In this document: piece after piece, positions 11,604-22,239 of the stretch
Layout: each line of letters begins with the position of its first letter
Position numbering within the stretch: position 1 is the first letter of the stretch
From: a virus
IMG/VR virus record: IMGVR_UViG_3300025102_000327
Location: 1-22,255 of that record
Length of the DNA: 22,255 nucleotides
Reading direction: 5' to 3' (one strand)
The notes under the pieces: generated by a model
Seen by the model: only the letters and a program-made list of their open reading frames with translations
What the model was told of the DNA's origin: nothing
Databases searched by the model: none
Made by a program: the position numbers and the translations under genes

Positions 11604-12602
11604 TCAGGCAGCTTGCAGGCTTCCAGCAACAGAAACTCGGAGAGTATCTGCGCCCATAGCTAATTTTCCGACGATTAAATCGCCCTGGTATTGGACATGG
11701 AAGTCCCCTGAAGTTGTCTCGATAGAAGGAGCAATAGCTTCAACAGTACCGGCTGCTTCCTTATGGAACACGAGGCCAGCAAGGTTCGAGCAGTCGACCT
11801 TGTAGTCGTTCTCTTCACCGGTTACGTCGGTGTTGAAGTTGGTTCCGTACATATCTGCAAGCACGTTGGACTTGAAGATACGGATGCCAGCGATGCTGTA
11901 CAGACCCTTACCGCTGTTCATGTCACCCTGGGTGTTACCGATTTCACGGTTCAGGATGTTTGTATCAACAGAGGAGATTAGGGAGTAGTACTGGCGTGGG
12001 CTGAGCACGGCGCAACGTCCTGACTGGGGAGCTGCACGTTCGTCGAGGACCGCCGCTGCCTCGAAGAAACCGTCGACAATCGCCTGGGCGTCGTTTGTGT
12101 TGCCAGAGCCAATGCTTACTTCAAAGCCACCGGGCTCATCTGTAACAACAGAGGACTCAGTTGCACCCTTTGCAAGGATACGAGCGATGCGCTCATCGTA
12201 GTGCAGGGCCATGGCTTCACCGATCTGTTTTGAGATCTCGCTGCGACTTGACCACTGCGACAGAATCTCATCCAAGTCGTAGCAGAACTGGCTGGATACG
12301 AGGAGCTGATCCATGACGATCGTCTTCTCGTTGCTCTTCAGTCCGTCATCGGGAGTGATAGCGGAGCCAGCAGTATGGTAGCCGCTGGAGAGCTTTCCTG
12401 TCAGCAAGAACTGCTTGCTCTTTCCACCACGAAGGGTGTAATTGCGAACCAATCCTTTAAAGATACAGGCGCTATTGAAGGCATTAAATACCTCGCCACT
12501 GAACAGCTTTAGTGCTGTAGCGTAACGAGTATCGTAGTTTTGTGTAGGGGTACGATTACCGTCTGCGACGTTATTACCCTGAAAAGCTGTAAAATCAGAC
12601 AC
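11604..12602 (-). CDS. Major capsid protein (T7 gp10A-like)
   Basis: The 332-residue product is close in length to T7 gp10A (345) and has the HK97-type capsid pattern of this family. FSGEVFNAFNSACIFKGLVR occupies about 34-53, followed by SKQFLLTGKL, DEILSQWSSRSEISKQIGEA, and a C-terminal AGIRIFKSNVLADMYG segment. The start is GTG at 12602 (Met-Ser-Asp-Phe). Upstream in frame there is no ATG before a TAA, so GTG is the best choice, although no clear Shine-Dalgarno sequence precedes it. A hairpin-rich leader of about 280 bases lies upstream and a stem-loop follows the stop. I see no sign of the gp10B-type frameshift extension known in T7. Confidence 0.95.
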   Translation of the reverse strand: MSDFTAFQGNNVADGNRTPTQNYDTRYATALKLFSGEVFNAFNSACIFKGLVRNYTLRGGKSKQFLLTGKLSSGYHTAGSAITPDDGLKSNEKTIVMDQLLVSSQFCYDLDEILSQWSSRSEISKQIGEAMALHYDERIARILAKGATESSVVTDEPGGFEVSIGSGNTNDAQAIVDGFFEAAAVLDERAAPQSGRCAVLSPRQYYSLISSVDTNILNREIGNTQGDMNSGKGLYSIAGIRIFKSNVLADMYGTNFNTDVTGEENDYKVDCSNLAGLVFHKEAAGTVEAIAPSIETTSGDFHVQYQGDLIVGKLAMGADTLRVSVAGSLQAA

Positions 12603-13348: not shown

Positions 13349-13465
13349 TTACCAGATGCTGCCAGTTACCAGATAAGTAACAACAGCAGCTACGACTCCA
13401 ATCATTGCGAGTCGACCATTCCAACGCTCGGCGCGTTCCCAGTGGGTTTCGTATTCAGGTCTCAT
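13349..13465 (-). CDS. hli: High-light-inducible protein (Hli), chlorophyll-binding
   Basis: A 38-codon frame too short for routine ORF lists starts at the ATG at 13465. Its core, ERWNGRLAMIGVVAA, carries the ExxNGRxAMIG chlorophyll-binding motif of the Hli/LHC superfamily in a single transmembrane helix (about residues 16-34). VTGSIW follows, corresponding to the TG.I ending of phage and Prochlorococcus Hli proteins, cut short. Hli proteins insert in thylakoid membranes and protect photosystems; cyanophages express them to sustain host photosynthesis during infection. The ATG overlaps the scaffold TGA (ATGA) and no Shine-Dalgarno is present, so translation is probably coupled to scaffold. 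This gene is the strongest evidence that the host is a cyanobacterium. No psbA is present in the window. Confidence 0.92.
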   Translation of the reverse strand: MRPEYETHWERAERWNGRLAMIGVVAAVVTYLVTGSIW

Positions 13466-14295
13466 AAAAGGTTAGTAGATCGGGATAGTTTATTTTCAAC
13501 GTCCTGGCGGAATGCAGGGTCGTCGTTGTAGCGAGGATCAGCAATGGCCCTAGCGAGCTCTGCATGACTCCTGAAGGCGTCCTTAGTGGGCGCTGACTTA
13601 CGTCCGGTCACCAGTGGGGCTTCGTATCCTTCAGCGTTCTTGTAGCGATTGCTGAGGGCTTCTACAGCGAACTTGATGGCAGCAGTGTTACCACTCGTAG
13701 TTACTTCGTTGTATGCAGAGATTTCATCTTCAGACAGGTTTGAGCCTGCCCACTGCACCATCTCCCCATAAGCTTGCTCTCCTCCAACAGAATCGAGAAT
13801 GGCTTTCTGAGCCGACTCGTCTACTGCCTGGGCTTGAGCTTTGTTTTGGTTCTTGGCATAGGAGCTGACATATGCCTCGATCAGATCTTTGCTGTCGAGT
13901 TTGGATAGTTCAGCAATTGACTCTTCAGTCAGCTTCCCTTCCTTTTCATATGCAACAGAGGCACGGCTGATAGCAGACTCAGCTTCGGAGATTTGCTCCT
14001 CTGCTTCTGCTTCCTTCTCAGGCTCAGCCGTCTCCTCTGTTGACTCCTCTTCTGTTTCACCAGAACTCATCTTTTTCTGAAGTTCCTCGTAAGCCTTCAG
14101 CAGCTCATCCTGTGATTTGAACTTACCGGCAATCAGCTCGGGGTTGTCATTCTCAAGGTCTTGCTGCTGAAACTTGCGCTCACGATCCTCCTGCTCCATT
14201 TGAGCAATCTTTTCGCCTTGCTCTAGTGCAGATGCCTCGGCAGCCTTCTGATCATCAGATGGCCCTTCGGATGGATCAAATACGGTAGTGGGCAT
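13462..14295 (-). CDS. Capsid assembly (scaffolding) protein, T7 gp9-like
   Basis: The 277-residue protein is very acidic and helical with long Glu/Ala/Lys stretches, for example ESTEETAEPEKEAEAEEQ around residues 83-100. Its length is near that of T7 gp9 (307), and it lies between portal and capsid as gp9 does. Such scaffolds guide prohead assembly and leave before DNA packaging. The C-terminal third has the DAFRSHAELARAIADPRYN motif at about 245-263, typical of podovirus scaffolds and probably the capsid-binding end. The start lies two bases after the stop of the 84-residue gene, and the stop codon overlaps the ATG of hli. Confidence 0.9.
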   Translation of the reverse strand: MPTTVFDPSEGPSDDQKAAEASALEQGEKIAQMEQEDRERKFQQQDLENDNPELIAGKFKSQDELLKAYEELQKKMSSGETEEESTEETAEPEKEAEAEEQISEAESAISRASVAYEKEGKLTEESIAELSKLDSKDLIEAYVSSYAKNQNKAQAQAVDESAQKAILDSVGGEQAYGEMVQWAGSNLSEDEISAYNEVTTSGNTAAIKFAVEALSNRYKNAEGYEAPLVTGRKSAPTKDAFRSHAELARAIADPRYNDDPAFRQDVENKLSRSTNLL

Positions 14296-14297
14296 AA

Positions 14298-14552
14298 TCA
14301 GTTGTATTTAGTGTGTGCATTTCCAATGCCTGGGCGATTCACCCTCGGCTTCTTGGCATACCTTCCGGCAGTGTTATTGGAAGGCCCCTCAATCTTTGGA
14401 GGTTTCATGTACGACTTCTTAGGAAGTGCAGGGGTAACTTCTGTGGGCTCCCATGCTTCATTTAGATCCGGTGTTGTTGGGTCATTCCCCTTGTACGTAC
14501 CATCAGCCTTCCGGGCTCGGCGTCTCTTCGGGGCTGGCTTGTTGCTGTCCAT
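14298..14552 (-). CDS. Small basic protein between portal and scaffold, function unknown
   Basis: This 84-residue protein begins MDSNKPAPKRRRARKADGTY and has a long, low-hydrophobicity, Pro/Lys/Arg-rich sequence with DPTTPDLNEAWEP around residues 25-37. Its C-terminus is basic as well. It has no membrane segment or catalytic motif and is likely disordered; a small head-associated or nucleic-acid-binding role is possible. The first 50 bases overlap the end of the portal gene in another frame, and scaffold follows after two bases. I judge the gene real from its coherent composition and coupling; I do not know a T7 equivalent. Confidence 0.7.
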   Translation of the reverse strand: MDSNKPAPKRRRARKADGTYKGNDPTTPDLNEAWEPTEVTPALPKKSYMKPPKIEGPSNNTAGRYAKKPRVNRPGIGNAHTKYN

Positions 14553-16152
14553 TCTGTGCTTGCTGCATCATTTGATCGGTTAGCTGCTCAGCCATTGGCG
14601 ACTTAGCCAACTGACCAGCTTGATTAACCAGCGAAGATTGCATCATCTGTTGTTGCATCTTCTGCTGTTCCTGTTGCATTGTTTCTGGGCTCTTCACAAG
14701 TTCGAGCGTGTCAATCCCAGAAGCTGCTGCTAGGCGCTTAATAAACTCGGTAGGTGAGATGTACTTCATGAGGGCTTCAGGCCCCATGGTCTGACCAATT
14801 GTTGTGACGAACTGCATGAGAGATGCCTTATCCTGGCCACGTCCAACACCACCCAGACCGGCTACAACAGTAGGCATAACCAAACCCTTAGGCAGAGTTG
14901 GGATACCTCTCTGACGTTGCAGTAGGAAGAGCTTACGGTTCAGATAGGGGGTCAATAGTTCGACAGTAAGATTGCCGAAGATTCCCCCGAGTTGTTCATT
15001 CAGCTCTTGCTGAACGGCTTGGACTTCGGTTGCTGTTGTGCGCTCAGACTGCCTCACGTTGAGGATCAAGAACGCATCAGACAGACGCTGGGTCAGGTCC
15101 TGAATCATTGTCTGGACCGTTCGGAAGTCTGCGGTCTTACCGACCTGCACAACACCGACATCATCGGGACGACCTTGGATGATTGCACCGTTAGATGCAG
15201 CAGCCAGGGACTGAGGTTTGGTAGTAGCAGAGGGGGACACCATGAACACAACCTTGGCGGCTGCAGCAGATCCTTCGACCATTGCTTGCATCAACCTTTC
15301 AAGGCTCTGTAGATCTCCTAAGAACTCCTCTACGCGGGATCTACCGTACGACTCCCCATCCACCACGTTGAATCTCAGCGGAGTCCAGGGGGTGTGCTTC
15401 AGGGGGCTGGAAGACTTGGTCTTAGCGATGATCTTTCCATCGCATTCTTGATGCCAATGGTGTTGACCATCCTTCAGCTTGACGTGGGTATAAACCACAG
15501 CATCATCTGACTGTCCCTTGTTACCGGCAGCGGCTACACCGAACTTCGGTCCATCCTCTCCGGGGGAGTTTGAATCAGCGAGACCACCAAGGCCTCCCTC
15601 ATTCTGAAATTCTTTTGGTAATAGAGACCGATCAACGATCTCTTTTGTAATCATTTCTGTAACTGTTCCATCACCGTCCCGCTCAATAACATAGCGATCG
15701 AGTGGGTAGACCTTCAGGGATTTCTTCCCGGCAAAGATAAGAGCATTGCCTGTGACAACTAGATGCTTCATGGCAACCGTCAGCTGCACCCTGTCGGATG
15801 TCTCGGAGATCTGTTCCATAACAGTCCGCTCCATCTTGGAGAGGCTTAGGTCGATCTCGGAGCGCACCTTAGGAGTGAGCTCAGGTATTGCCATCAACTC
15901 AGCATCATTTAATTGCAGCTTGAAAAAGCTAGTGTTGATAGGGAAGAGGCTCAACATTAATTTTGAGCTGAGCACGTTGACACCTTTGGCCCCTAGTGAT
16001 TGCCACGGGGTCCGTAGCTTTCCACCTTCTGTGTGACCATCTTCGGTCAGAAGGTAGGGGAGAGTTAAAGCCGCACAGCGGCGGCCCATGTCTAGAAAGT
16101 CCTCACGGTCCGAAGTCAGTTGCTGATATCTAGCCTGAGCATTCGTTTCCAT
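14503..16152 (-). CDS. Portal (head-tail connector) protein, T7 gp8-like
   Basis: The 549-residue protein fits T7 gp8 (536) in size and place. Characteristic parts include ALTLPYLLTEDGH (about 28-40), WQSLGAKGVNVLSSKLMLSLFP (50-71), which is diagnostic of the T7 connector family, and ERTTATEVQAVQQELNEQLGG near 373-393 in the long helical stem region. The C-terminus is Gln/Met-rich (QQEQQKMQQQMMQ). The protein forms the dodecameric ring at one vertex through which DNA enters and leaves. The start is directly after the stop codon of the Pro-rich gene with no Shine-Dalgarno, suggesting coupling. Its last 50 bases overlap the next gene. Confidence 0.96.
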   Translation of the reverse strand: METNAQARYQQLTSDREDFLDMGRRCAALTLPYLLTEDGHTEGGKLRTPWQSLGAKGVNVLSSKLMLSLFPINTSFFKLQLNDAELMAIPELTPKVRSEIDLSLSKMERTVMEQISETSDRVQLTVAMKHLVVTGNALIFAGKKSLKVYPLDRYVIERDGDGTVTEMITKEIVDRSLLPKEFQNEGGLGGLADSNSPGEDGPKFGVAAAGNKGQSDDAVVYTHVKLKDGQHHWHQECDGKIIAKTKSSSPLKHTPWTPLRFNVVDGESYGRSRVEEFLGDLQSLERLMQAMVEGSAAAAKVVFMVSPSATTKPQSLAAASNGAIIQGRPDDVGVVQVGKTADFRTVQTMIQDLTQRLSDAFLILNVRQSERTTATEVQAVQQELNEQLGGIFGNLTVELLTPYLNRKLFLLQRQRGIPTLPKGLVMPTVVAGLGGVGRGQDKASLMQFVTTIGQTMGPEALMKYISPTEFIKRLAAASGIDTLELVKSPETMQQEQQKMQQQMMQSSLVNQAGQLAKSPMAEQLTDQMMQQAQNGQQQASPEETPSPEG

Positions 16153-16427: not shown

Positions 16428-16613
16428 TTATGTCTCCGATTTTGCTTTGATGTACTCGACAACAGAACGCTGTCCAGCGCGATACATGATCACGCTCATG
16501 TCGTCTGTTGGGTTTGGGTTAAGAGGTGGATACATGGCATCCAGCTCCTCGGTGAGTTTGGTGAGAAAAGTTTCCCCACCAAAAACCATTTCAGCGGATA
16601 GTTCTTTAGCCAT
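16428..16613 (-). CDS. Hypothetical protein, 61 residues
   Basis: I do not recognise this protein. The ATG at 16613 (MAKELSAEMVFGGETFLTKL) overlaps the last eight bases of the reductase beta-subunit gene. A TTG ten codons further upstream is less likely. The sequence is soluble, mixed charged, with a Pro/Asn patch YPPLNPNPTDD in the middle and a helical C-terminus. Tight spacing with the following Pro-rich gene (two bases) supports it as a real operon member, probably a small head or accessory protein. Confidence 0.65.
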   Translation of the reverse strand: MAKELSAEMVFGGETFLTKLTEELDAMYPPLNPNPTDDMSVIMYRAGQRSVVEYIKAKSET

Positions 16614-17325
16614 ACTTTGGCAAGTTATTATTTGAGGCCTCAAAAAAAGCAGGCATCCTGGCTCGTTGTGTATCAGCCAGGCCCTTAGCTTTACCTGAGG
16701 TGTAGAGATTGTCGGACTGTTTGATCCAGAAATCCTTATCCAGATACTTGTCCTGGTTGACGCCCAGACCGTCCATAACCCAGGCCACGGTTGCCCTCCT
16801 CAGCTTGTTTAACTTCGCTGTAGAGGCGTGGCCGAGGTCATGAGCGACCATGGCGTGGATCGCCGTGTGTGTCTGTTCATCCCTTGAGATGTCAGATGCC
16901 ACAGTCCTAATTCCCATTGATCCGTTGAAGCGAAAGAAAGGGAGCAAGACAAAGAACACCGATCTTTCGAGGATCGCTGTCTTAAGGATCGGATGCTCGG
17001 GAGCAGCGAGCCAGGCCTTGCGGATGTTTTCAGCCTCCCGCTCTGCCCGCTCATCAACACCGTGAGCATCAACAATGAAGCCAAGAGCTTTGTCGTGTTT
17101 ATCTTCATCGGCCATGTTCGACAACAGAGCAGGTAGAACTCCCGGATCATCAGGGAGCTCACGCTCTAGACCTTGCTGCAGCATCTCCTTCACAGGGAGC
17201 TCCAGGGTCCGCAGGGCCAGGGCTCTAAACATTGCAGCCTCTGACCCATCTTTAATGTCACCCTTATCAACGGGGACAGGTGTCCAGGTTCTTTTTCTGG
17301 ATACGATTTCTGTGTACTTAGACAA
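16606..17325 (-). CDS. nrdB: Ferritin-like diiron protein, probable class I ribonucleotide reductase small (beta) subunit
   Basis: The 239-residue protein has two E-x-x-H motifs, EDKH (Glu74, His77) and DEQTH (Glu150, His153), plus Glu120 thirty residues before the second and Glu42 about 30 before the first. This is the carboxylate/histidine ligand pattern of R2-type proteins. The residue four after His77, where the radical Tyr stands in E. coli NrdB, is Leu81. The protein is short for the family (320-375 usual). It begins with TTG at 17325, two bases after the large-subunit stop. From memory, the analogous gene of cyanophage P-SSP7 was reassigned as a beta subunit after long being hypothetical. 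The role would be to generate the radical or oxidant for the alpha subunit; the ligand set is clear, the function inferred. Confidence 0.75.
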   Translation of the reverse strand: MSKYTEIVSRKRTWTPVPVDKGDIKDGSEAAMFRALALRTLELPVKEMLQQGLERELPDDPGVLPALLSNMADEDKHDKALGFIVDAHGVDERAEREAENIRKAWLAAPEHPILKTAILERSVFFVLLPFFRFNGSMGIRTVASDISRDEQTHTAIHAMVAHDLGHASTAKLNKLRRATVAWVMDGLGVNQDKYLDKDFWIKQSDNLYTSGKAKGLADTQRARMPAFFEASNNNLPKYG

Positions 17326-17326
17326 T

Positions 17327-18700
17327 TTACTCAGCGCAAGAAGAACAAAAGTTGTCCTCCTCTTCTATTCCAAATATATCGTGGTAGTCCTCATCGAGGA
17401 TCGATGTGACATCATCCTTGCGGAGGGTGTCCGGCATCACCTGAAGTGCATAATAGAGGGAGGTTTGAGGGGACTGAAGCCACTCCTCGATGAAGGCCTG
17501 ATCGTAGGTAACAACGTCACTCCATGAATTGAAACTATATCCATGGAAGAGGCCAGTATCTGCAAGCAATTTGCAGATGCCGTCTGCGACGGACTTGAAG
17601 GCATCCCACCCTACTTCTGAGGCGATTTCTACATCGCCATAGTCATAGGATTGAACACCGAAGGTGCCGCTATCACGGTCAACCTGTCGACTAATAGGCG
17701 GTGCAATCTCTGGACAGGTAGTGAACCCATCTAGATCTGTGTATCTGTAGGAGCAGCTTGCGGTGGGGGCGATGACAAACGCTCGGTCCATGTTGTTGAC
17801 ACGGGCCACGGTTGCAGCACCAGCAATAGCGCAAGCCAACTCACGGGCAACAACCAGTGCCGGTGTGCGTTCAGCATCAGTGTCATCAATGAGGGTTAAC
17901 GCTTCTCCGAATGCTGCGTAGGAGACACCTTGACGATGCAGGAAGTTAGCCAGTCCGAGCATTCCGAGGCCAACCTGACGATCCACTGTCGAGCAAAGGT
18001 ACTCGCCAGTTTCCCCCACTCCGGTCTTTTTATGGAGATCACACAGTCGGGACATTCCGTTTGTAAAAGCGGTAAAGAGATCTCCCAATTCGCAGGCACC
18101 CATATTAATGTGCGACAATAAACAAGTGCCCCGCGATTGAATCCATACTTCGAGGCAAACGTTACTAAATATACGCTCGCCTTGCTGGTCGTACTTGACT
18201 TTACTAAGCCAAATGTCCCCAGCTTGGATCGCTTTGTAGAGCTTTTCTCGGACAGGTTCGGTAATTTCATCCCACCATTCCTGATTAATTTGAATGCACT
18301 TCTTTACCCATGGAAGTTCATGGCGTGGTGCATCAATAAATTCTTCTAGGTCTGGATGACATGCGTCCAGTGTTACAACACAGGCACCGTTCTTGTACGT
18401 ACCACCTCTTCTAAGTACTTCATTAAGGACGGAGTACATCCTTGCAAACGACACTGGGCCAGAAGCGACAAGGCCCTTTCCGTTCTCTGAACCCCGTGGG
18501 CGGAGCTTAGAAAGATGCACAGCGACTCCGGCTGCATTGCGTAGGGCATGGCTGACGAATCTCCAGCTGGCCTCGATTCCATTTGGTCCCTCCATTGTGT
18601 CTTCGACCTGGAAAACCGTGCAGCTCACAGGCAGGCGAGATTCAGGGTTGTCGAGCCAGGATTGAACTCGACCAGTTACGGCAATCTTTTCACAAGTCAT
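17327..18700 (-). CDS. nrdA: Ribonucleotide reductase large (alpha) subunit, compact cyanophage type
   Basis: The 457-residue protein lacks the N-terminal ATP-cone and is much shorter than usual alpha subunits (over 700). The catalytic motif NVCLE (Asn180, Cys182, Glu184) is present, with redox partners Cys27 (PVSC) and Cys193 (GTCLLSHINMG), the PTAS-type loop PTASCS (312-317), and a C-terminal CSSC shuttle (Cys452, Cys455). LYYAL (Tyr416-Tyr417) matches the Tyr-Tyr radical relay of class I enzymes, arguing against the class II label often given to such phage genes. It reduces ribonucleotides to deoxyribonucleotides for phage DNA synthesis. Its ATG overlaps the MazG stop (ATGA), and the probable beta subunit follows two bases later. 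Confidence 0.92.
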   Translation of the reverse strand: MTCEKIAVTGRVQSWLDNPESRLPVSCTVFQVEDTMEGPNGIEASWRFVSHALRNAAGVAVHLSKLRPRGSENGKGLVASGPVSFARMYSVLNEVLRRGGTYKNGACVVTLDACHPDLEEFIDAPRHELPWVKKCIQINQEWWDEITEPVREKLYKAIQAGDIWLSKVKYDQQGERIFSNVCLEVWIQSRGTCLLSHINMGACELGDLFTAFTNGMSRLCDLHKKTGVGETGEYLCSTVDRQVGLGMLGLANFLHRQGVSYAAFGEALTLIDDTDAERTPALVVARELACAIAGAATVARVNNMDRAFVIAPTASCSYRYTDLDGFTTCPEIAPPISRQVDRDSGTFGVQSYDYGDVEIASEVGWDAFKSVADGICKLLADTGLFHGYSFNSWSDVVTYDQAFIEEWLQSPQTSLYYALQVMPDTLRKDDVTSILDEDYHDIFGIEEEDNFCSSCAE

Positions 18701-19086
18701 ACTAAGTCTTCGAGAATTGGTGGTTGATAGTTAGGCCCTTTCTGTACTTTTCCGGCCTCATTCTTCAGCGGTTTGCCATCGACCAGCTTGCTCATGTTGG
18801 ACTCGTGGACCCTGTCCAGGGCCTCGTCGAGTTCCCAACCGGCAGCAGCGGCGTACTGAAAGCAGACATATACGAGATCTGCTAATTCTTTGAGAGCATC
18901 TTGACGTGCTCTCGGGTTCTGTACATATTTCAGAGCCTCATCTTGTGCTTCGAGAAACTCTTTGAATTCCTCAACGATCAAAGATAGCTGAAGCTTGAGA
19001 CTCGAAGGAGTAAATGTCCCCGTCGGTTGTCCCATCGCTGTCCTGAACTTGATCGCTTGGCCCAGGAGATCCGGTGTGTACTTCAT
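18697..19086 (-). CDS. mazG: MazG-like nucleotide pyrophosphohydrolase
   Basis: The 129-residue protein carries the all-alpha NTP-PPase signature: EExxE at Glu39-Glu40-Glu43 and ExxD at Glu67-Asp70 (KELADLVYV), with Asn97 in HESNMSKL and a conserved-looking C-terminal Lys/Asp tail. These acidic residues bind Mg2+. Substrates of phage MazG proteins are debated: (d)NTPs such as dGTP and dCTP have been reported, whereas ppGpp cleavage, once proposed, has been questioned. The start at 19086 is needed to keep the first helix (AIKFRTAMGQPTG) and creates a 116-bp overlap with the DUF3310 gene. The stop overlaps the reductase start, tying it to nucleotide supply. Confidence 0.9.
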   Translation of the reverse strand: MKYTPDLLGQAIKFRTAMGQPTGTFTPSSLKLQLSLIVEEFKEFLEAQDEALKYVQNPRARQDALKELADLVYVCFQYAAAAGWELDEALDRVHESNMSKLVDGKPLKNEAGKVQKGPNYQPPILEDLV

Positions 19087-19276
19087 TGTTAATCAGTTTG
19101 TGTAGATATGCTTTGGCCTTGAGAAGATCATCGAGCTTTGTCTCGGTGTGCTTCTTTCCAGCGCGGGTGATGTACTTAATGATGTTGCCTTCGAGGTAGC
19201 CAAGATCATGGGAGCAGATGTAATCCCAAGTCTCGATGCCTTGGCGGTAATGATTAGGAGAGAACTTCGAGTTCAT
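18971..19276 (-). CDS. DUF3310-family protein
   Basis: The ATG at 19276 gives 101 residues. HYRQGIETWDYICSH (9-23) and LEGNIIKYITRAGKK (28-42), followed by LDDLLKAKAYLHKLI, are the complete DUF3310 signature, common as a small nucleotide-metabolism-associated protein in tailed phages, often fused to or near replication genes. I chose this start because the 27 residues upstream of it in frame lie in the coding region of the 52-residue gene and look random. The tail beyond residue 64 is Gly/Ser/Asp-rich and overlaps the start of mazG by 116 bases in another frame. The biochemical function is unknown. Confidence 0.85.
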   Translation of the reverse strand: MNSKFSPNHYRQGIETWDYICSHDLGYLEGNIIKYITRAGKKHTETKLDDLLKAKAYLHKLINNEVHTGSPGPSDQVQDSDGTTDGDIYSFESQASAIFDR

Positions 19277-19412
19277 CGGTGACTTTGGATAAGAGTGATT
19301 CCATCCATGGCTCCCAGACAAGAGGAGCCAGGGGGATGTCTGTGTAGCGGTAGGCACGACGAGCTTGCAGGTTGTTCCTTACAAACTGCAACTCAGTTGT
19401 GGTGAGTTTCAT
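19254..19412 (-). CDS. Hypothetical protein, 52 residues, coupled to the exonuclease
   Basis: An ATG at 19412 overlapping the exonuclease TGA (ATGA) opens a 52-codon frame ending in TAA at 19254. It begins MKLTTTELQFVRNNLQARRA and continues YRYTDIPLAPLVWEPWMESLL; the last residues are acidic and helical. The frame fills the space between the exonuclease and the DUF3310 start, which otherwise would be non-coding, and it overlaps the latter by 23 bases. I do not recognise a family. T7 also has several small genes after gene 6. Confidence 0.65.
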   Translation of the reverse strand: MKLTTTELQFVRNNLQARRAYRYTDIPLAPLVWEPWMESLLSKVTDELEVLS

Positions 19413-20143
19413 GGGGTGAAGAGGATAGGTTGCTGAGTCTTTGCATCCCAGTCTTTGAACTGGAGGATGCGTGCTAATCGGAGATTTCGCAGGGCATCAT
19501 CTTCTGTTAGTCCTGCTTCTTTGTAAGTTTCGACGCAAGCGTCCCAGTAAGATCCCTTACGCTTGTCAAGGATGTCACCAGCACGTTTCGGGCCAGCTCC
19601 CGGACAACCCTTGTAGCCATCTGTGCTGTCTCCACATATGCATTGCATGTAGAGAAGTCTCTCGGCAAGTTCAGGGGTCTGGGTGTATTCCGTTTTGAGG
19701 TCATAAATACGACAAGCAATTTGAGCCATATCTTTGTCAGGCGAGACAAGGACAAAGTTCTCAACGCTGCCGTTGGTGGCAATGATGCCGAGACAATCGT
19801 CTGCCTCTAGTCCAGGTTTCATGATTGAGGGATAGGTCTCCATCCCCCAGTTCTTCAATTTCAGATACCCACACGGCTTGCGTTTGGTTCTGTTTCCCTT
19901 GTAGTTGGGGTCGATTGACTTTCTGAAGTTCACCCTGTCGGTAAAGAACAGCAGCAGATCGTCGGTGTCGAATCGAGACCGGAGCTTGCTCAGCTCCTGC
20001 TCAACAATCCGCTTGCCCTTAGTGAAGTCCCCGACAATGACGGTTAGCTCCTCGTTGTAATCGTGCTCGTCTTCAGCCGCACTTGCTGCTCTGTAGAAGA
20101 AGAAGTCTGCATCGACGAGCAGTTTGGTGGGCTGTAAGGACAT
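19409..20143 (-). CDS. 5'-3' exonuclease, T7 gp6-like
   Basis: From the ATG at 20143 the protein has 244 residues. It shows the FEN/5'-nuclease metal-site series: LLVDADFFFYRA (Asp11, Asp13), FTDRVNFRKSIDPNYKGNR (66-84), GLEADD (111-116), SPDKDM (134-139), and GDSTDGYKGCPGAGPKRA (171-188), the last being the helix-hairpin-helix K+ site. The ending ARILQFKDWD...LFTP parallels the T7 gp6 C-terminus. T7 gp6 degrades host DNA and removes RNA primers. An upstream start at 20245 adds 34 residues lacking family features and lying inside the nuclease gene, so it was rejected. The first 71 bases overlap the upstream gene. Confidence 0.92.
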   Translation of the reverse strand: MSLQPTKLLVDADFFFYRAASAAEDEHDYNEELTVIVGDFTKGKRIVEQELSKLRSRFDTDDLLLFFTDRVNFRKSIDPNYKGNRTKRKPCGYLKLKNWGMETYPSIMKPGLEADDCLGIIATNGSVENFVLVSPDKDMAQIACRIYDLKTEYTQTPELAERLLYMQCICGDSTDGYKGCPGAGPKRAGDILDKRKGSYWDACVETYKEAGLTEDDALRNLRLARILQFKDWDAKTQQPILFTP

Positions 20144-20567
20144 CGTGTTTAGTGGGATTAGCGGGAAAATTTTTTGCCCAGAAATACTCCAGGCCTTTTG
20201 GTGCTCGGTTCCTGATCCAACGAACCTTCCAATCGCAGATGTCACCCTCAGGTGTGACTGCTACAGGGAAGACGGGATCCTTAACCTTGCAGGTGTTAGC
20301 TGCTTTCCAGATGTGGCGTTGATAGTCCCAGGAGTCAGCCTTCACATCGAGGGCGTAGGTAACACCATCGACTTTGATTAGCAGATCAGCAGGGCCTGTC
20401 GTATTGAGGTTTGGATACACCTCAGCACCTTTCCATGTGGCAAGGAACCCCACCCACATCTCAGCTAAATCACCGAGACGGTTTGGTTCAATGGCAGTCC
20501 GCCCACGTCTTACCGATTTTTGCTTCGGCGTCGAGTTCGCAGCGGAACTTAAGTTGGTGTTGGACAT
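20073..20567 (-). CDS. Putative PD-(D/E)XK-fold nuclease
   Basis: The 164-residue protein has a basic N-terminus, then RLGDLAEMWVGFLATWKGAE (30-49), with Glu36 in the usual first-helix position. GPADLLIKVDGVTYALDVKA (58-77) gives Asp61 and Asp74-x-Lys76 in the D-(x)n-D-x-K arrangement of PD-(D/E)XK nucleases. It differs from T7 endonuclease I (gp3) in length and motif spacing, so I cannot say whether it is the resolvase. It overlaps the polymerase end by 80 bases and the exonuclease start by 71, so almost a third of it is dual coding. The last 15 residues look unconstrained, suggesting the exonuclease frame dominates there. Confidence 0.65.
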   Translation of the reverse strand: MSNTNLSSAANSTPKQKSVRRGRTAIEPNRLGDLAEMWVGFLATWKGAEVYPNLNTTGPADLLIKVDGVTYALDVKADSWDYQRHIWKAANTCKVKDPVFPVAVTPEGDICDWKVRWIRNRAPKGLEYFWAKNFPANPTKHDVLTAHQTARRCRLLLLQSSKCG

Positions 20568-22239
20568 CTTTAATAGCGGCGGTAATTAAAAAAGAGGATT
20601 GCTCGGCGTGCTCTGGTGCAACCGACAACTGGAATTCGTCGTGGATGAAACCGAGAGGCCGATAATCAACTCCTGCCTCGGTGAGTAACTCGAAGGCTCG
20701 TAATAGCCAAGACTTACAAATACAGGAGCCAGCAGACTGCAGGAGATAGTTAGTAGAGGCATGATTTTTACCTTGTAAACGTATGGGCCGACCATCTAGA
20801 GCTTTAAGGACGCCAGTTTCGGCACGCTCTGAGATGGCCTTAGAAAGCTCTGCAAAGCCATCTAGCCCTTCCATGATGCGTTTCCTTATCTCTGCACCTT
20901 TCTTGGCTGCAGTGGCCTTAGAAGCGCCAGCCGTGAGGCCTAACTTCATATTGCCACCACCATATATCAAACAATAAGTAACACCCTTGGAGGTCTTCCT
21001 GTCGGTTTGATAGATGTCGGCTAGCTTCTGGTGAATGTCACCTTCAACCACTTCTTTAGAGAACTTAGAGTTGTCCCAGGGTGCCAAATAATGTCCCAAA
21101 CACCTAAGCTCCAAAGAAGAAGCATCAGCACCACATTGGACACGACCCACTCCAGGACCGAATAGTTTTCTGTATTCAGGGTCCGACGGCACCTGACTAA
21201 TGTTCGGAGATAAATGGCACATTCGTCCCGTATTTGTATTAAGAATACAAGAATGATGGATAAGTCCTTTACGCTCCTTTTTAAGCCAGGCATTTTTACC
21301 TTCCGAGAGTTGGCCTAGGTGTTTCTGTAGTTCAAGAATGCGGGCGAACTTCAGAGCCTCGGGAGTGCCGATTTCTTTCAGGACTGTGTCGTCAATCTTG
21401 GGTGTACCTGTTGCTGTCCTCTCGATCGGAGTCCAGCCTCTGAACTGTTCAAAAGCGAACGCGATGTGGTGGCGACTGGTCGGGTTGAACTCTTTCAGCT
21501 TGCACATAGACGCATCAGCAAAATACCCTTGGGTTTTGTTGTTGCGCTTAGGGGTGAAAAGACCACCATCCACAAATAGGAAGGTGGAACGCATCTCGTC
21601 TGAGATTACGTCGAGTTCTGTCCGTAACTTGGCCTCCAGTTGTTGAGCAGCTTTTACGTCGAATGGCCATCCTGATCGTTCTTGCCACGCCATGTACGTA
21701 GCGAGTTGGTGTTCAGTGTTAATTGCAGTTGAATACTGTTCAAGCTTAGGCTCAAACATTTTCGCAAGCTGGACACTGACAACCACATCCCGACTGCAAT
21801 ACTCAAGCATGGCAGGCGAATAAGAAGACCAATCTCCCTCCAGCGATTTGCCGAATTCGGACTTGTGGACTCCGAGACGATGCCCCCACGCCTCAAGTGA
21901 ATGCCTGCCGTAAAGGTTGGCGGGCATGTTCGCAGGACGTGATCGGAAGTCTCTGTCCAGGATGTCTGTGAATAGGAGCCTGGAAAGGATGAGCGTGTCG
22001 TAGAGACGAGCTCGATATGTCCAAGAAGGAACGATCTCCTTGATTGCTTCGATGTCATAGCCGACGATGTTGTGTCCCCAGAGCTCATCAGCGTTAGCCA
22101 GAACTTCTAGGCCGGACGGGATATCCCCGTTGTCCCAGCGATACTCCTCATTGGTGTCGAGGTCGCGGGCAACGATGCAGTGAATCTTTGTGAGACCGCG
22201 TAGCAAGCCATCGGTCTCGATGTCAAATACTAATCTCAT
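20488..22239 (-). CDS. DNA polymerase, T7 gp5-like family A with 3'-5' exonuclease
   Basis: The 583-residue protein is shorter than T7 gp5 (704) but complete. Exonuclease motifs: FDIETDG (Asp6, Glu8), HNIVGYDIE (Asp62), and YCSRD (Tyr147, Asp151). Polymerase motif A: GADASSLELR (Asp372). Motif B: DRKTSKGVTYCLIYGG, with Arg414, Lys418 and Tyr426. Motif C: FIHDEFQ (His533, Asp534, Glu535). The residue matching E. coli Pol I Phe762 is Tyr422, as in T7. It replicates the phage genome; T7 uses host thioredoxin as a clamp, and the shorter length suggests a reduced thioredoxin-binding loop here. The ATG at 22239 is 17 bases from the right edge, so the upstream gene is not visible. Confidence 0.97.
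   Translation of the reverse strand: MRLVFDIETDGLLRGLTKIHCIVARDLDTNEEYRWDNGDIPSGLEVLANADELWGHNIVGYDIEAIKEIVPSWTYRARLYDTLILSRLLFTDILDRDFRSRPANMPANLYGRHSLEAWGHRLGVHKSEFGKSLEGDWSSYSPAMLEYCSRDVVVSVQLAKMFEPKLEQYSTAINTEHQLATYMAWQERSGWPFDVKAAQQLEAKLRTELDVISDEMRSTFLFVDGGLFTPKRNNKTQGYFADASMCKLKEFNPTSRHHIAFAFEQFRGWTPIERTATGTPKIDDTVLKEIGTPEALKFARILELQKHLGQLSEGKNAWLKKERKGLIHHSCILNTNTGRMCHLSPNISQVPSDPEYRKLFGPGVGRVQCGADASSLELRCLGHYLAPWDNSKFSKEVVEGDIHQKLADIYQTDRKTSKGVTYCLIYGGGNMKLGLTAGASKATAAKKGAEIRKRIMEGLDGFAELSKAISERAETGVLKALDGRPIRLQGKNHASTNYLLQSAGSCICKSWLLRAFELLTEAGVDYRPLGFIHDEFQLSVAPEHAEQSSFLITAAIKDVQHQLKFRCELDAEAKIGKTWADCH

Follow-up and report, generated by a model that had tools for sequence, protein, structure and literature searches.

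How does a ribonucleotide reductase (RNR) start catalysis when its beta subunit carries no tyrosine at the radical site? The question is raised by the viral record IMGVR_UViG_3300025102_000327, whose 22,255 bases, analysed as a whole, are referred to here as the window; the RNR alpha and beta genes both lie on its minus strand (Table 1). The original prediction read the pair as a compact class I RNR with an unusual beta subunit in need of another oxidant.

Table 1. Positions of genes and catalytic codons in the window
Feature	Positions	Strand	Remarks
Family A DNA polymerase	20488-22239	-	
Small protein	20073-20567	-	
Exonuclease	19409-20245	-	
DUF3310/"nucleotide kinase"-type protein	18971-19357	-	
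MazG-like nucleotide pyrophosphohydrolase	18697-19086	-	phrog_671, E 2.6e-34; upstream of alpha, 4-base overlap with alpha start
Class Ø/Cyano SP RNR alpha, catalytic	17327-18700	-	457 aa, without ATP cone
Alpha Cys182 codon (thiyl radical Cys)	18155-18157	-	C185 of S-CBP4 alpha
Alpha Tyr416-Tyr417 codons (PCET dyad)	17450-17455	-	Y420/Y421 of S-CBP4 alpha
Alpha C-terminal CSSC codons (Cys452-Cys455)	17336-17347	-	CXXC-type tail
Class Ø ferritin-like RNR beta	16606-17325	-	239 aa, TTG start
Beta Leu81 codon	17083-17085	-	site of E. coli radical Tyr122
Beta Phe131 codon	16933-16935	-	site switching together with 81
Bbp19-like protein	16428-16643	-	71 aa; phrog_4970, E 2.8e-18; downstream, overlaps beta end
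Portal	14503-16152	-	
Scaffold	13462-14295	-	
Capsid	11604-12602	-	tail genes further on

Gene order in the window is that of Synechococcus phage Syn5 (DNA polymerase, exonuclease, MazG-like protein, alpha, beta, portal, capsid). The MazG-like, alpha, and beta genes correspond to Syn5 gp32, gp33, and gp34, with 75% identity for alpha and 78% for beta, and Syn5 has a small gene, gp35, where the window has the Bbp19-like gene. On the strength of this order and these identities, we take the record to be part of a Syn5-like, T7-like cyanophage genome. The Syn5 beta gene differs from that of the window in having an ATG start and in overlapping the end of alpha; in the window, a single base (17326) lies between the alpha stop codon and the beta TTG, which agrees, within counting, with the two bases first reported. 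TTG is the chosen beta start in 10 of 156 relatives and ATG in most others, and beta adjoins alpha in most relatives. The window polymerase contains the motif KGVTYCLIYG, which places a Tyr at the 762-type position (register assigned by eye), in agreement with the link described between Tyr762 PolA polymerases and Cyano SP RNRs (PMC6302109).

Every feature first listed for the 457-residue alpha subunit is present: the NVCLE segment, N180-V-C182-L-E184, which carries the thiyl Cys182; both redox cysteines; the Tyr416-Tyr417 dyad; and the CSSC tail. The redox pair, C27/C193, corresponds to C30/C196 in the structure of S-CBP4 alpha (PMC9531940). The catalytic region begins near residue 10, and the ATP cone is absent. 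A phmmer search of the PDB matched alpha to 7urg, the S-CBP4 class Ø alpha, with an E value of 3.2e-206 over 434 aligned residues, and the matches after it reached only 7e-9; Pfam PF02867 was matched at 6.6e-22. C27, C182, C193, Y416, and Y417 are invariant in all 195 distinct full-length alphas, and CXXC is the commonest tail among the relatives.

The class I label was harder to sustain. The best named NCBIfam model was class II NrdJ (E 4e-20), followed by NrdE/NrdA (E 7e-16); every one of these scores fell far short of the curated cut-offs. The Tyr-Tyr pair had been taken as diagnostic of class I; it also occurs in some class II sequences, and it has already been described in class Ø alphas, which form a separate clade nearer class II by sequence (PMC9531940). 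What stands is an RNR alpha/beta pair with an R2-fold beta (see below), its designation as class I being contested. The closeness to class II, seen in the PDB and NCBIfam matches and in PMC9531940, would also suit a B12-dependent alpha accompanied by an accessory ferritin-like protein, such as a metal store or repair protein, and marine picocyanobacterial hosts both produce B12 and carry RNRs of class II (PMC6370689). We regard this as highly improbable, however: in the class Ø cryo-EM structure, 7urg, the Tyr dyad stacks beside catalytic C185 and occupies the place of the class II adenosyl group (PMC9531940), and the residues for proton-coupled electron transfer (PCET) are invariant in both subunits.

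By sequence, the window pair is a class Ø RNR (Burnim 2022, PMC9531940), a group also delineated as the Cyano SP clade (Harrison 2019, PMC6370689). It shows the sequence features of class Ø: a short alpha, an adjacent beta of ∼240 residues, the EEHEEH ligands with two Asp residues, Leu81, the Tyr dyad, a penultimate Tyr, and a CXXC tail, the class having tails of either the CXXC or the CXC type. The class Ø RNR of Synechococcus phage S-CBP4 (7urg; PMC9531940) resembles it in alpha size, lack of an ATP cone, Tyr-Tyr dyad, and redox Cys pair, and the downstream gene likewise encodes a beta of ∼240 residues whose radical site is Leu/Phe and whose next-to-last residue is Tyr; identity is 69% for alpha and 51% for beta. 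The Cyano SP RNR of Prochlorococcus phage P-SSP7 (PMC6370689) shares the eight metal-site residues, the missing Tyr, and the alpha-beta order, with 49% identity between the betas. P-SSP7 was annotated as class II until 2019, which bears out the statement that such cyanophage pairs were once annotated as class II plus a hypothetical protein. The enzyme was thus read correctly and is a new member of class Ø, not a new class. The novelty implied at first falls away, the class having been described already (PMC6370689, PMC9531940), and the oxidant question predates the present finding. The same two papers state that the radical Tyr is missing from Cyano SP/class Ø betas. According to Burnim et al., these betas average 240 residues, carry Phe or Leu in place of the radical Tyr, have Tyr as the last residue but one, and lack a tail for binding alpha (PMC9531940). 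It has been suggested that the class Ø branch is ancestral to the class I and class II RNRs.

The 239-residue beta subunit has the predicted diiron ligand set, E42, E74, H77, E120, E150, and H153, with D73 and D149 as second-sphere residues; this E E H E E H pattern with D D is that given for P-SSP7 in Table 3 of PMC6370689. Leu81 lies four residues after H77, as Tyr122 of E. coli NrdB lies four residues after His118, which confirms its assignment to the radical site. The only tyrosines of the window beta are Y4, Y194, Y208, and Y238, and none of the four falls in a ligand-bearing helical segment; this rules out a Tyr from elsewhere filling the radical site of this protein. With that Tyr absent, the case for another oxidant is supported. 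The chain ends one residue past Y238, without the C-terminal tail by which class I betas bind alpha.

Sequence searches with beta gave a strong match to one family, phrog_6799 ("ribonucleotide reductase class Ia beta subunit"; E 3.5e-113, full length). No Pfam or NCBIfam family was assigned at default thresholds, a single-sequence search of the PDB gave no meaningful match, and a PF00268 profile search of the whole virus record found none. Scored directly against PF00268, beta reached 11.3 bits, below the curated sequence cut-off of 33.6, and the best E value among 91 beta relatives was 7.7e-4. A profile search of the PDB yielded weak matches, all to Chlamydia R2 and not significant (E 0.2 to 0.3). 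Profile-profile alignment to ten class I betas brought all motifs into register with E. coli NrdB, at a probability of 3% (P = 0.014); given this low probability, the R2 assignment rests on the fold instead.

Structure prediction, proposed with the original prediction, gave an R2 fold, so that the original prediction withstands this attempt at refutation. The AlphaFold2 model of beta, built with 91 relatives in the alignment, had a pLDDT of 90.5 and a pTM of 0.87, with residues ∼221 to 239 poorly modelled. All 50 matches listed by VIA-align were R2 proteins of known subclasses (Z 18.2 to 19.8 over 213 to 234 residues), well over the level stated as common for helical models; the top match had a Z score of 19.8 over 217 residues, and the class Ic R2 of Chlamydia scored 19.7. 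In Foldseek, R2 proteins made up 49 of the 50 matches listed and AurF, a diiron oxygenase, was the remaining one; E values reached 1.9e-4 at best. The phrog_6799 match, the VIA fold, and the invariance of the six ligands in 233 relatives together rule out a chance similarity.

The six ligands, along with D73 and D149, are identical in all 233 distinct betas. At site 81, 195 of these have Leu, 38 have Phe, and none has Tyr; Leu, first presented as an oddity, is the rule, and "Phe or Leu" was already published. W14 and Y238 are kept in every beta aligned there (231 sequences), Y4 is kept in 228, and D145 is Asp in 229 of 233. As judged from these alignments, both ends of a class I-type radical path are retained (W14-Y238 in beta and Y417-Y416-C182 in alpha), and no sampled member of the family has the Tyr store.

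We therefore favor, with a probability of roughly 60%, a reading in which the phage encodes this class Ø RNR for its own use and beta holds a metal-centered, high-valent oxidant, with Mn/Fe as the most likely metals. In this scheme the RNR would supply dNTPs during lytic replication. Beta would bind two metals through the six conserved ligands and react with O2 or a reduced oxygen species, the hole staying on the high-valent metal pair and not on a Tyr. The hole would then pass from W14 (E. coli W48) to the penultimate Y238 (E. coli Y356), and on through alpha Y417 and Y416 to Cys182, whose thiyl radical would start nucleotide reduction; C27/C193 would be oxidized and then re-reduced via the CSSC tail. 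A beta of 239 residues with no Tyr in its metal-binding segments comes near the minimum size for studying how two metals by themselves might start DNA synthesis. The literature consulted on class Ø betas yielded no activity, metal content, or EPR results. Burnim et al. describe the class Ø mechanism as not classifiable, the protein as unstable without metal, and the biochemistry of beta as ongoing (PMC9531940), and a 2026 preprint calls the group biochemically uncharacterized (PMC12918982).

Mn/Fe is preferred by analogy with class Ic (PMC4118035), which likewise combines a Glu first ligand with a redox-inert radical site. The class Ic R2 of Chlamydia trachomatis (Mn/Fe) shares both properties and the R2 fold with the window beta; it is ∼100 residues longer, gives no significant sequence match, and has Phe127 in place of Leu81. 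Two further class Ic features are missing: D73 stands where class Ic has Glu (Glu119 in C. trachomatis), and, in a gap-free alignment, D145 stands where Chlamydia has Tyr222, a relay residue that helps reduce Mn(IV)/Fe(IV) by relaying the activating electron (PMC4118035). Phylogeny also sets the Cyano SP beta apart from class Ic (PMC6370689). The ligand pattern EEHEEH is common to classes Ic and Id (PMC6370689) and fits diiron monooxygenases as well, which means that sequence does not identify the metals.

The two missing class Ic features leave a dimanganese cofactor of the class Id type as a real rival, one we consider possible though rather unlikely. Here Mn2(III,IV), made with superoxide, would be the oxidant, and no tyrosyl radical would be used. 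The first sphere of class Id is identical to that of beta (PMC6370689, Table 3), its alpha lacks an ATP cone like that of the window (PMC9531940), and the dimanganese R2 structures 6cwo, 6cwq, and 8dq4 were among the Foldseek matches of the beta model. Class Id, however, keeps its (unused) Tyr and has Cys/Ser at the position of D73, and the phylogenies of PMC6370689 place Cyano SP apart from the known subclasses. The R2lox Mn/Fe ligand-binding oxidases also resemble beta: their site holds two metals, possibly Mn/Fe, and the first ligand is Glu. They differ in that they are not RNR subunits, contain a Tyr-Val cross-link and a ligand channel, and have neither a C-terminal PCET Tyr nor a paired alpha (general background and PMC4118035).

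Site 81 varies together with a second position, residue 131, which lies 11 residues after E120. Phe81 occurs with Tyr131 in 38 of 38 betas and Leu81 with Phe131 in 188 of 195; among the 233 distinct betas, the Phe81/Phe131 combination was not found, and the sole Leu81/Tyr131 sequence is that of the distant Microcystis phage Mic1, for which the alignment is less sure. The window beta has the Leu81/Phe131 design, as does that of Syn5; the beta of Cyanophage SS120-1 is an example of Phe81/Tyr131. APC-corrected mutual information ranked the pair 6th of 27,495 (z = 7.2). On a tree built without columns 81 and 131, the state changed six times; well-supported branches force at least three of these changes, and in the branch pairs tested (three supported, six in total) the two sites switched together; a sign test on the three supported pairs gave a P value of 0.25, three being too few for significance. 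We checked whether block recombination could account for the coupling in two Phe81 lineages, L090 and L074, and do not favor it: in both, the stretch from 82 to 130 is nearest to Leu81 sequences, once L090's own twin is set aside. The alpha tails of Phe81 pairs are CXXC in all 32 scored, with no CXC; this may be a lineage effect alone.

The pocket around E. coli Y122 is formed by F208, F212, and I234 (PMC7615503), which by register would correspond to F124, L128, and I146 of beta. L128 is invariant among the relatives, at a site where 99% of R2s have Phe (PMC7615503). Helix periodicity would place residue 131 on the face of F124 and L128, which makes a contact between residues 81 and 131 plausible. 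The switch to Phe81/Tyr131 would thus bring a Tyr onto that helix face, which, with the retention of W14 wherever it is aligned, lends something to the idea that, with an ordinary diiron cofactor, the hole is stored on another protein residue, such as W14 or the Tyr131 of the Phe81 group. We find this doubtful: residue 131 is Phe, not Tyr, in the window and most relatives, and the Trp radicals of known R2s have short lifetimes.

Class Ø betas could comprise two coupled radical-pocket designs, exchanged several times, that may represent two ways to hold or relay the oxidizing equivalent (metal only, or metal plus an extra Tyr); we offer this tentatively, as one of the less probable readings. 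If it were true, either design would be a radical-initiation scheme unmatched by classes Ia to Ie. The coupling was not found described in the class Ø literature consulted, which left most subscription journals outside its coverage. It is a modest new lead, and the switch provides a natural variant pair for comparison.

Several more distant relatives were encountered. A contig of Calothrix membranacea FACHB-236 (L098:5001-5717) encodes a complete class Ø beta with 49% identity, the ligands and the penultimate Tyr being kept; its neighbors are cell-like genes (for a histidine kinase and a cytochrome c-type protein), and alpha is absent from the vicinity. A search of the 8.8 Mb of Calothrix genome data likewise gave no class Ø alpha, and of 291 genomes in the order, one encodes a class Ø beta. 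On these grounds we rejected the idea that filamentous cyanobacteria possess a cellular class Ø pair; the Calothrix beta may be phage acquired or orphaned. A PF02867 search of the same 8.8 Mb (L098, G001) returned no RNR alpha at all, so the organism would have another RNR type, e.g., a monomeric class II enzyme, or carry the gene on contigs outside these data. Mic1 (L081:3983-4753) encodes a distant class Ø beta (35% identity), annotated as NrdB; no alpha lies within 4 kb, and its neighbors are all on the opposite strand. The beta gene of S-CBP4 (L082:3001-3713, NC_025464; also HM559717) is split into two reading frames in both records, giving two tblastn pieces and an annotated protein of ∼205 residues; the frame break could be a sequencing error or real. 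Lastly, class Ø pairs were present on contigs from bins assigned to Planctomycetota, Verrucomicrobia, Bacteroidetes, Euryarchaeota, and others (L089-L104). These are likely cyanophage contigs misbinned into MAGs; if so, published figures for the bacterial share of class Ø could be too high.
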